A stretch of DNA of 64,000 nt from Halorussus halophilus (GCF_008831545.1 NZ_CP044523.1:558001-622000); one strand, 5' to 3'. Counted from the stretch's first letter, positions 46,843-50,180 are shown. Translations and numbers: made by a program. The notes: generated by a model not told the origin, from the sequence alone.

Positions 46843-46956
46843 GACTCCTTTTTCCGATTCGACTCGATAGCGACAGCGCTAGCCGTCGTTCTCTCCTACG
46901 TATTTAGATTAGAAAGTTTTAGAAAAATCGACATGAAATTCTGATTATAGTTTGGT

Positions 46957-47088
46957 ATGGCACGTTATGCCAACCCAACCGAAGTGGTCGCAAAGAACCC
47001 GAAACTACTCACCGCGTTCTGGCTGGTGACGCTGCTGCTCGTGGAGGCTGCTCCCGTTCTCGCAGACGGTGGAAAAGGCGGTCCGTGA
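46957..47088 (+). CDS. 43-residue single-span peptide, DUF7503-like
   Basis: ATG 46957 to TGA 47088. The sequence begins MARYANPTEVVAKNPKLLTA, a cytoplasmic 17-residue part, then one span (about 19-36: LTAFWLVTLLLVEAAPVLA), ending VLADGGKGGP; VLA before DGG could be a signal-peptidase-I site, which would release a 7-residue tail. This layout resembles haloarchaeal DUF7503 mini-proteins, as I recall them. AT-rich DNA (46906-46930) lies upstream. The stop is 2 bp from the stop of the opposing CHAT protease gene, which makes a functional link likely. Confidence 0.65.
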   Translation: MARYANPTEVVAKNPKLLTAFWLVTLLLVEAAPVLADGGKGGP

Positions 47089-47090
47089 AA

Positions 47091-49337
47091 CTACGACTCG
47101 GCGAACCACTCGTCGCTCCAGCGTAGTTCGCCGTCAACGACGAGTGGCTCACCGTACGGTTCGAGTGCGTCTCTGAGCGCCTCGCGCTCCAAGCGTATCG
47201 CTCCGTAGTCACCCATCGTGAGGTGATACTGTTGCATCTCGTCTATTTTCGCTCTCGTAATCGAACCGGCTCCTAGCACTCGCGTCCAGTAATTACGTCG
47301 CTCGACGGTGACCGTTCGAGGGTCGTCGCCCACGTCGAGATGGTGGACTGTCGGCGTGCCGTTGTCGTTCTGCGTCACCCTGACACCGGGGTCGCCGAGC
47401 GCGACGTACTCGCGGCCGATAGACGTGTATTCGCGGACGATTTCGAGCGCACTGCCGACGGTGAATCCGTGGGAGAGCAGTCGGGCGAACGTCTCGCCGA
47501 CCTCGCCCGCGCCGGAGTTCCAGAGGTCACCGAGGCTGACGACTGCGGCCCGCGCCCCCGCTTGCACCAGTTCGGTGCCTTGGTCGTGGGACCGACAGCC
47601 GTTCAGCAGTACCATCGTCGCGCCGGTCGATTCGACCGTCGCTGCGTCGAAGACGCCGTCCGGACACTCGAAGCCTCGGCCGTCGATGTGGCCGATGAAG
47701 TGGAACATGTCGCTGGAATCGGCCAGTAGCGCCCGTAGTTCGTCCGTCGAGACGCCGAACTCGTACTCGACGTTGACGCGGATGTCGCTCCGTTTGTCGT
47801 ACACCGCCGCGGCGGTGTCTAACTCCTCGCGCATCTGCCCGTCGTTGCAGACCACGACGATTTCGACCGCGTCGCTCTCCGAGGACACGCTGTTGGCGAA
47901 CGCTTCCGGCAACAGTTTGGTGCCGTGAATCGGCGTCTCGTCGCCGATCCACGCTTGTTCGAGAGCGTCTACGTCCGGCAACGGCATGTAGCCGTCTTCG
48001 CCGGGGACGCCGAGAGTCGGGGTGTCGTCGCCGGACGAGACCTCCTGCTCGCCGGTCGTTCCCGCGTCGCCATCCCGTTCGCCAGTCGCTCCTTCGTCGT
48101 CTCCCTGTTCGTCGCTCTCCTGCATAAAGCGCGTCAGCGCCGACGATTGGGGAGCGTCGTCAGGTGCGGTCCGGTTCCCGGACTCACTCTCTTCGCCGTC
48201 GCTAGTTCGCTTGAATGCGCCGAGTATCTCGCCGGTCTGCTCCTGTGCTTCCGACGGTTGCGACGGGGGCTGGGTCGGGTCTTTCGAACGGACGAGCGAG
48301 AGGTCGTTGAGGACGTACGGTAAGAGTTCGACCGATTCCGGCGTCGGTTGGACGTGGGTCACGCGGTGCCACGTCGGCGTGACTTCGGCCAGCACGTCGG
48401 CTGGAATCGCGAGGTAGGCTTCGAGTCGCTCTGCGAGCGAGGCGTCGTACAGTGCCTCGAAATCTAACTCGATTCGTTGTTCGACGACGGAACGCTCGTA
48501 GAGGTCGTCTGGATACAGCCCCTCGGTCCGCGTCACGCAGTCGAGGACGAGCGTCCGCTTGAGCAACGTCTCGACGTGGTCTGCCAGTTCGGCGACGGTA
48601 CTGCCGAGTCGCCAGTAGATACCGGTGTCAGTCGTCAAATACGCCGTCTCGTCGGGCACGACCTGCGCTCCGAGGTAGTACGCCAAGGGCGCGACGGTGT
48701 AGACGTAGCCGTACTCCGGTGGGATTCGAATCGTGACGCCCGTCTGTGGCGGGTCGAGTTCGTCCGGAATGTGCAGTTCCTCGCCGCGCTCGACGACCGG
48801 TGGATGCCCCCGGAGACTCGGCCACGCCCGTTCGGCCGAAGTCGTCTTCAGCGACGAGGAGAACGCCGATACTGCTTTCATCATCGCTTCGGGGTCGTCC
48901 GGAACGGTAATCGTCGCCTCCGGAGAACTGTGGTGCGAGCGCGCGCCGACAGTTACCGTCGTCTTCTCGCCGAATTCCAGTCGGGCAGTCTTCGAGTCGA
49001 TGTCGATGGCGACCTGACTCTCGACGTGTAGGTAGATTTTGACAGGCGTGTGAAGCTCCAGCAAGTACTCGCCCGCCGGGAAGGTGTCGGACTCGGGCGG
49101 GTCGATACCGCCCAGACGAGTGCCGTCCGGCGCACGAACCTCGGCCGGTTCCGAGGAGAACCGAAGCGTCTCGGTGCTGAGTTCGCAGGCAGCATCGACC
49201 GGAGCGGTGAACGGTCGTCTCTCCGTCTGGGACGGGTCCACAGGCCCCTCGGTGAAAAATTGCACCAATCGGGTCTCGACAGTGTCTAAGACTTCGAAAC
49301 CAGTCGCGTCGGAGAGTGAGTGGAATTCAATCCTCAT
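47091..49337 (-). CDS. CHAT-domain caspase-like protease
   Basis: 748 residues from ATG 49337 (MRIEFHSLSDATG). The N-terminal region is beta-rich with PPEYGYVYTVAPLAYYLGAQ; a Ser/Glu/Asp/Thr/Pro-rich linker lies at about 375-470; then comes the CHAT domain. SDMFHFIGHIDGRGFECPDG gives His550 and MVLLNGCRSHDQG gives Cys581, the caspase-like catalytic pair. ARAAVVSLGDLWNSGAGE and VSIGREYVALGDP-like end parts are CHAT features. C-terminal 80 residues are helical. Downstream of a DUF7504-like gene on the same strand (84 bp); convergent with the 43-residue peptide gene. Confidence 0.85.
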   Translation of the reverse strand: MRIEFHSLSDATGFEVLDTVETRLVQFFTEGPVDPSQTERRPFTAPVDAACELSTETLRFSSEPAEVRAPDGTRLGGIDPPESDTFPAGEYLLELHTPVKIYLHVESQVAIDIDSKTARLEFGEKTTVTVGARSHHSSPEATITVPDDPEAMMKAVSAFSSSLKTTSAERAWPSLRGHPPVVERGEELHIPDELDPPQTGVTIRIPPEYGYVYTVAPLAYYLGAQVVPDETAYLTTDTGIYWRLGSTVAELADHVETLLKRTLVLDCVTRTEGLYPDDLYERSVVEQRIELDFEALYDASLAERLEAYLAIPADVLAEVTPTWHRVTHVQPTPESVELLPYVLNDLSLVRSKDPTQPPSQPSEAQEQTGEILGAFKRTSDGEESESGNRTAPDDAPQSSALTRFMQESDEQGDDEGATGERDGDAGTTGEQEVSSGDDTPTLGVPGEDGYMPLPDVDALEQAWIGDETPIHGTKLLPEAFANSVSSESDAVEIVVVCNDGQMREELDTAAAVYDKRSDIRVNVEYEFGVSTDELRALLADSSDMFHFIGHIDGRGFECPDGVFDAATVESTGATMVLLNGCRSHDQGTELVQAGARAAVVSLGDLWNSGAGEVGETFARLLSHGFTVGSALEIVREYTSIGREYVALGDPGVRVTQNDNGTPTVHHLDVGDDPRTVTVERRNYWTRVLGAGSITRAKIDEMQQYHLTMGDYGAIRLEREALRDALEPYGEPLVVDGELRWSDEWFAES

Positions 49338-49421
49338 TGTGTCCCGTTCCCGTCGTCTTCCGTTTGAGTGGGGCAAGGCGCACGAACTGTGGCCGACGCC
49401 ACACACTCTCACGGTAGCGAG

Positions 49422-50180
49422 TCAGAGTGGCGTCCACTGCATCTGTAAATCCTCGCTACTGATGTGCCACCGTTCTTCGGCGTCGTGGTCGTGCTTGTCG
49501 GGGTCTACGGCTCGCAGTTCGATGACGGCGTCCATCTCCTCGGCGAGCGCCTTCGTGGCGTCGCTCTCGTGCGGTTTCCGTAACGCGTAGTGGGCCATCG
49601 CGTCGTGGTCGTGGACGTGACGGCCGACCGTCCGGAGGCAGTTGCGAACGACGTCGATGCCGTAGTGTCCGACGAGTGGGTCGAGCGAATCGACGCCGAC
49701 CCGTACGTCGGCCGGTCGGATGACGTCCGCGTCGTCGGACGCGTCCGCGAGTGCGTCCACGAGCGCCGACTGTAATCCGTGCAGTTGTGGGTCCGCGATT
49801 TGCGTCTCGCGAATATCCGCGAGTGTGTCCGGCGTGGACAGGTCGTCGGCGTTCGTGACAGAGCGAGGCACTGCGGTGTGGTTGAGAACGTGCGTCGTCT
49901 CGGACAGCGGCCGCGGGGTCGTGTTCGGGTCCGGCAGTCTGTCGGCGATGCTCTGGGGTGTGGCGTCGGTCACTGCCAGAACCCGGTATCGCATCGCGTC
50001 CGCGTCGCCGAACAGTTGTGCGCTCGCCCGAGTGAAAATCGAGCGTGGTGCGTCACCGACGAGCAGGAGGTTGCAGCCGTTCGTCTTGAACTCGTTCAGC
50101 AGGTTGAAAAACTCCGTGAGGCCGTCGCTCTCTGGTTCGCCCTCGTCGGACCCGCGAGCGCGGGGACGCTCCATTTCCAT
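49422..50180 (-). CDS. DUF7504-type degenerate P-loop protein next to the protease
   Basis: 252 residues from ATG 50180 (MEMERPRAR; MERPR two codons later is alternative). After an acidic leader, LNEFKTNGCNLLLVGDAPR matches the Walker A-like start of haloarchaeal DUF7504 (GxNLLLxG) but lacks the GK(S/T) lysine, and VLAVTDATPQSIADRL resembles the following strand. The rest is RecA-like in length. AAATTTATTA (50214-50223) is the promoter. The protein probably senses a ligand and works with the CHAT protease downstream; that is inference. Confidence 0.7.
   Translation of the reverse strand: MEMERPRARGSDEGEPESDGLTEFFNLLNEFKTNGCNLLLVGDAPRSIFTRASAQLFGDADAMRYRVLAVTDATPQSIADRLPDPNTTPRPLSETTHVLNHTAVPRSVTNADDLSTPDTLADIRETQIADPQLHGLQSALVDALADASDDADVIRPADVRVGVDSLDPLVGHYGIDVVRNCLRTVGRHVHDHDAMAHYALRKPHESDATKALAEEMDAVIELRAVDPDKHDHDAEERWHISSEDLQMQWTPL

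Follow-up and report, generated by a model that had tools for sequence, protein, structure and literature searches.

Convergent peptide and protease genes of Halorussus halophilus

The 64,000-nucleotide stretch of the Halorussus halophilus genome analyzed here (GCF_008831545.1, NZ_CP044523.1:558001-622000; hereafter the window, with positions counted from its first letter) contains a compact locus in which a small gene for a candidate peptide precursor faces the gene of a predicted protease. The precursor gene (46957..47088, plus strand) encodes 43 residues, and 2 bp separate its stop codon from that of a 748-residue CHAT-family protein encoded on the opposite strand (47091..49337). The ATG of the latter gene lies 84 bp past the stop codon of a third gene, also on the minus strand, which encodes a 252-residue DUF7504 protein (49422..50180). 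A first-pass annotation, made from the sequence alone, had described the same arrangement; its coordinates, lengths, gene spacings and catalytic residues all hold, whereas its interpretation stands only in part.

The CHAT label of the 748-residue protein relies on its fold and catalytic residues, because its match to the Pfam CHAT family (PF12770, 13.5 bits) is below the cut-off of 24 bits; the initial assignment is thus confirmed in fold and dyad but not by the family score. Foldseek matches the AlphaFold model (predicted local distance difference test, pLDDT, 88.8) to separase (5fby), SAVED-CHAT (8tl0), gingipain and Csx29 with E-values from 4e-7 to 5e-4. The predicted catalytic residues His550 (codon 47688..47690, minus strand) and Cys581 (codon 47595..47597, minus strand) are invariant in 83 relatives. 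By its sequence and model, the protein is a predicted His/Cys protease of the caspase/separase fold. The likeness is by fold only, as no solved relatives were found by sequence; neither the Pfam scan nor the top Foldseek matches revealed TPR, and the N-terminal ~450 residues matched no Pfam family. In two CHAT homologs (L243 and L244), the catalytic His/Cys motifs are apparently missing by simple pattern match, and inactive paralogs may exist. In addition, diverged CHAT relatives (L245-L248) occur in a family of the same phylum outside Halobacteria (f18), with no recognizable partner ending in Gly-Pro.

The 43-residue open reading frame (ORF) matches the Pfam family DUF7503 (PF24335) with 19.8 bits (E = 5.9e-4), under the cut-off of 27; despite this score, it has the anatomy of the family, namely a leader, an A-x-A-like site and a tail with a Gly-Pro end, and the layout convergent with CHAT. 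The same genome encodes six further DUF7503 genes over the cut-off, which are likewise convergent and located beside a paralogous CHAT gene, as well as 17 DUF7504 genes. Both DUF7503 and DUF7504 are catalogued, uncharacterized families. Among 145 Halobacteria genomes, the CHAT profile was found in 131 and DUF7503 in 120. The genome of the Haloferax volcanii laboratory strain also contains a DUF7503 match that exceeds the cut-off. Among the matches listed, 130 of the 150 DUF7503 places are near a CHAT gene, and 129 of these 130 are convergent and within 300 bp; inspection of the regions around the remaining 20 places revealed a CHAT partner for nearly all of them too. A peptide is present at 109 of the 116 CHAT ORFs examined, with gaps between the stop codons clustering at -17, -4, and 0 to +10 bp; 20 of the 116 regions were chosen for holding the peptide, and the rate among the others is slightly lower (~90/96). 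Group-A CHAT genes are over-represented in this sample because they are the best-scoring ones. The peptide genes carry an AT-rich TATA-like stretch 28-40 bp ahead of the ATG; the corresponding promoter region of the window gene (46887..46956, plus strand) was assigned by composition across 111 peptide genes.

Because of the DUF7503 match, the relatives at the same place in this genome and across Halobacteria, and the promoter-like stretch, we regard the 43-residue ORF as a real gene, which by its sequence is a divergent member of DUF7503. The suggestion that the small ORF belongs with the protease is therefore borne out, the recurrence beside haloarchaeal CHAT genes being far stronger than guessed, whereas the view that such genes are generally missed is not, since Pfam already holds the family, even if the window copy is under its cut-off. 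At one locus (L121, G012:C1:486534-486796), two DUF7503 genes that encode an identical tail, NTSSISGP, lie next to each other beside one CHAT gene. A HalX-like response-regulator gene precedes the peptide gene, in the same orientation, at loci L076 and L080 and, overall, at ~16 of the 116 CHAT loci, which hints at two-component control of precursor expression.

Precursor forms and the Gly-Pro tail

The 109 aligned peptides share a common anatomy: [HNR]-P-[KR], a Gly residue, a hydrophobic stretch, S-Q-A-G, and a signal-peptidase-like site (A at position -1 in 102 and A or V at position -3 in 103 of them) followed by 7-10 residues. The tail ends in Gly-Pro in 97 of 112 peptides; NNNIYIGP is one of the tails predicted for other haloarchaea. 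The window precursor is divided by this scheme into MARYANPTEVVAKNPKLLTAFWLVTLLLVEAAPVLA and DGGKGGP. Its leader (residues 1-36, 46957..47064, plus strand) comprises a short N-terminal part with N-P-K, a hydrophobic segment and a V-L-A end resembling the A/V-x-A site of signal peptidase, after which cleavage is predicted from the -1 and -3 residues of relatives; the predicted mature tail with its Gly-Pro end (47065..47085, plus strand) corresponds to the unit that is repeated in the tandem precursors described below. The first-pass annotation had pointed to the end VLA-DGGKGGP, and the tail is indeed the part that deserves attention.

The leaders are of more than one type. In the second CHAT group (group B), convergent small ORFs have soluble leaders and KR[VI]S[ST]Y[GR]GP ends, and the codons of the KRVSTYGGP tail have undergone synonymous change. 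The partners of two other CHAT genes (L279 and L280) end in NGVVVKGP and GNGTVITGP, respectively. For the CHAT genes that do not have a standard DUF7503 partner ending in Gly-Pro, we found 15 convergent ORFs with this end, compared with the 0.44 that a background of 0.57% would predict; for many group-B CHAT genes, no convergent partner ending in Gly-Pro is visible.

In two genomes of the genus g43 that have no DUF7503 match, the same convergent place is occupied by precursors with repeated tails: seven copies of GNGSGISGP with the spacer MTAD, and 13 copies of GNSGGISGP with the spacer [YFS]TAD. Such tandem precursors were detected in nine of the 171 genomes searched in the family, all from this genus. 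The seven that were read whole contain 4, 5, 7, 7, 10, 13, and 14 copies; unread bases break up the sequence of an eighth, and these eight all adjoin the CHAT C-terminus. Every precursor has its own uniform 9-mer, which differs between species and also takes the forms GNGGGISGP, GNSSGISGP, and GNGGAVSGP. The 13 copies at locus L076 differ synonymously only (nonsynonymous divergence, pN, of 0 and synonymous divergence, pS, of 0.54 for the unit); therefore, every copy is held identical by selection. In related genera, the precursor is of the signal type, with A-x-A followed by GNHVGISGP or GNNVGISGP, and the 9-mer of the tandem genus corresponds to the predicted signal-peptidase product of these sister genera. 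Thus, two unrelated precursor designs define the same 9-residue product.

As judged by these sequences, what stays constant next to the CHAT stop codon is the Gly-Pro end and not the membrane span. The span had initially been taken as the defining feature and was dropped as the functional part after the soluble and tandem leaders were found, because many partners of these types keep only the tail ending in Gly-Pro.

Joint variation of the tail and the CHAT C-terminus

The C-terminal domain of the window CHAT protein (residues 661-748, 47094..47357, minus strand) is 25% identical to that of the nearest homolog (L023), whereas the rest of the protein is 62% identical. By this comparison, it is the counterpart of a hypervariable block that we delineated in two genera at species-level sampling, g7 (30 species) and g10 (24-25 loci). 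In both genera, the leader is nearly invariant, whereas the tail, apart from its Gly-Pro end, is different in nearly every species. For instance, in g7 the pN and pS values are 0.038 and 0.27 for the leader, 0.33 and 0.79 for the tail, and 0 and 0.69 for Gly-Pro. The g7 CHAT protein shows pN of ~0.03-0.11 over most of its ordered length and ~0.42 in the last ~90 residues; the boundary falls within about ten residues, a conserved scaffold is retained inside the variable C-terminal domain, and a disordered linker is also variable. The same jump in pN, from 0.13 to 0.36, was observed in g10. Synonymous divergence also rises at the block, from 0.36 to 0.80, and the GC content at third codon positions (GC3) in g7 falls from 0.92 to 0.51. 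Owing to the convergent layout, the variable ends of CHAT and of the peptide are adjacent.

Pairwise distances from one half of the CHAT body match those from the other (r = 0.86 and 0.71 in the two genera), whereas those from the body and the C-terminus hardly do (0.22 and 0.27), a pattern that exchange or very rapid change would produce. The similarity of tails follows that of the C-termini when the body is taken into account (partial Mantel test, p = 0.047 in g7 and p = 0.0014 in g10), and nearest neighbors by C-terminus share tails well above chance (p = 0.0002). Particular residues also pair in g7: the five tails in which position 2 is Gln occur with the [LM]E[ND]xPIF form of the C-terminus, and all seven tails with Gln or Lys at position 4 occur with G-x-x-Y-x-P, which was found in just one other sequence. 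In g43, where the tails are near-constant, hypervariation of the C-terminus is absent as well (pN 0.11). By these comparisons, the C-terminal domain behaves within genera, though not class-wide, as a receptor part that would co-diversify with the peptide, and the joint hypervariation of the two ends points to self-specific peptide recognition.

Several observations weigh against this interpretation. The weaker codon bias of the block accounts for part of the rise in pS; even so, the block is compositionally and evolutionarily distinct by its sequence. The partial Mantel result in g7 is marginal, and nearest neighbors by CHAT body share tails too. Class-wide, the tail and C-terminal distances are uncorrelated (r = 0.01), and covariation at this level was rejected as saturated. 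At one g12 locus, the C-terminus is divergent (pN 0.23, four species) in spite of a near-constant tail. Furthermore, 15 of the 112 tails have no Gly-Pro end, and many of them finish in forms such as NGGTIS; an attempt to place the non-Gly-Pro tails in a separate C-terminal clade was uninformative, with four changes on both trees. Finally, the group-B, L279/L280 and tandem precursors have no Sec signal, which leaves their export unexplained, entry of an external peptide to the cytosolic CHAT protein is assumed, and the sensor reading itself is drawn from sequences and structural models.

Candidate peptide sensing by a caspase-fold protease

The recurrence of the small gene, its coding character, the tail repeats, and the joint hypervariation in several genera are direct observations, and in our view they probably reflect a cognate pair of a short peptide signal and an intracellular CHAT protease partner, which together would form a self-recognition cassette. 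In the proposed mechanism, the C-terminal 7-10 residues of the precursor, with their free Gly-Pro carboxyl end (DGGKGGP in the window), would constitute the active peptide. The leader of the common precursor form would serve as a signal peptide, and signal peptidase would cut after A-x-A to free the tail outside the cell, whereas one genus would produce the tail from tandem multi-copy precursors. Recognition of the cognate tail by the variable C-terminal domain of CHAT would switch the His/Cys protease, so that the cell would sense its own kind or density. The sequences strongly favor a short peptide as the conserved functional unit. Secretion or export, uptake, binding, the direction of protease control, and the target or output are the parts of this scheme that we infer. 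Because of the convergent, stop-to-stop layout, the gene ends that code for the tail and for the recognition domain may constitute one short block that is exchanged or diversifies together between conserved flanks. The broader proposal, namely an archaeal family of gene-encoded peptide pheromones in which pherotypes are species-specific, precursors can be multi-copy, a caspase-fold protease is the receptor, and the convergent cassette is exchanged as a unit, has in our estimation an even chance of being correct.

The peptide might instead remain in the cell, membrane-bound or cytosolic, and dock its Gly-Pro terminus on CHAT as an inhibitor or substrate in regulated death, a toxin-antitoxin pair, or anti-phage defense. 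This alternative draws on the cutting of partner proteins by CHAT proteases in Craspase (PMC10028731) and on the several partners that have no signal sequence; we nevertheless consider it unlikely, since even orthologous loci present in a single copy have diversified from species to species, something that insulation inside the cell does not call for, and since arrays of 4-14 identical copies and spacers argue for release of the 9-mer. The death or defense function put forward in the first-pass annotation is likewise not favored, and the anti-phage and toxin-antitoxin variants were rejected, given that CHAT is near-universal in haloarchaea (131/145 genomes), no PADLOC model matched at E < 1, and no CHAT relatives were found in viral contigs.

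Less probable still is a product similar to ribosomally synthesized and post-translationally modified peptides (RiPPs), or a small halocin, with the tail as a hypervariable antimicrobial core and CHAT as the maturation protease or immunity factor. Joint variation would fit a toxin and its immunity, conserved leaders with hypervariable and multi-copy cores occur in RiPPs according to general knowledge, and clan CD proteases can process peptides. However, no modifying-enzyme or transporter family was recognized as a recurrent neighbor in the largest clusters inspected, and the presence of one copy in nearly every g7 genome, together with the wide distribution of CHAT, is more like a core function; CHAT as the sole processing protease was also rejected, because the residue ahead of the tail differs between groups (A, D, R). 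It is very improbable that a housekeeping small membrane protein is merely linked to CHAT and that both ends evolve fast under relaxed constraint, as the lower GC3 and the lack of class-wide covariation would allow, given the unchanged Gly-Pro (pN 0 versus pS 0.69), the 13 identical repeats despite their pS, the sharp block boundary, the conserved scaffold inside the C-terminal domain, and the tails that track the C-terminus within genera.

The DUF7504 protein of the window matches PF24336 with 130.4 bits (E = 1.4e-37, cut-off 27), and its model (pLDDT 91) has a KaiC/RecA-like fold (KaiC match with E of 3e-7). It had been proposed to be an NTPase-like sensor; the fold agrees with this proposal, but the Walker A motif is absent from all 55 DUF7504 sequences, hence the protein is not an obvious NTPase sensor. 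DUF7504 is encoded directly upstream of CHAT on the same strand at ~45 of the 116 loci, and a member is nearby in 69. The expected recurrence beside CHAT is thus observed, but for only ~60% of the CHAT genes, and an obligate partnership was rejected for this reason. In the peptide-sensing scheme, DUF7504 would be a degenerate KaiC-like accessory partner, or possibly the output. At four Halorussus loci (L022, L024, L025, and L026), the DUF7504 gene shares the strand of CHAT but is located past the peptide gene rather than ahead of CHAT.

The proposed system resembles several known ones in its working principle, as judged from general knowledge, and belongs to none of them. As in the agr and ComQXPA systems of Gram-positive bacteria, a short precursor and a sensing part co-vary as a hypervariable block between conserved flanks; however, here there is no histidine kinase and no AgrB or ComQ, the partner has a caspase fold, and the genes are convergent and archaeal. 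The Rap-Phr and arbitrium systems (RRNPP) similarly combine a ~40-residue precursor, a signal-like leader, and a short C-terminal peptide with a conserved end with an adjacent cytosolic partner, whereas the haloarchaeal genes are not co-directional and their partner has an intact protease dyad and no TPR or helix-turn-helix receptor. Identical peptide units with short spacers also make up yeast alpha-factor and similar tandem precursors of hormones, but the precursors described here (4-14 units) have no dibasic sites, use the spacer [YFMS][TN]AD, and in tandem form have no Sec signal. Craspase Csx29, SAVED-CHAT, HetF, and separase share the caspase fold with His and Cys, whereas here there is no gRAMP, SAVED or TPR, and the partner is a peptide with a Gly-Pro tail.

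In the open-licence literature, we found no publication on the function of DUF7503 or DUF7504, the role of the tail or the link to CHAT, and nothing relevant on haloarchaeal CHAT proteins, CHAT with pheromones, or archaeal peptide pheromones. The only quorum-sensing response analyzed in detail in archaea is that of Haloferax volcanii, in which the unidentified signal is ≤3 kDa and proteinase K-resistant and has no known receptor (PMC12240190); we claim no link between this signal and the peptide family. As far as the sequences indicate, the novelty lies in the combination of parts and its domain of life, and the locus looks like a signal and sensor system of a kind that has so far no archaeal description. 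How archaeal cells communicate with one another is still largely unexplored, and the peptide family provides gene-encoded candidate signals, for which ~100 genomes each yield a predicted peptide and the partner protein can be named. If the proposed recognition is true, caspase-fold proteases would gain a peptide-sensing role, and the retained convergent layout would be explained by the joining of two specificity ends in one exchangeable block.

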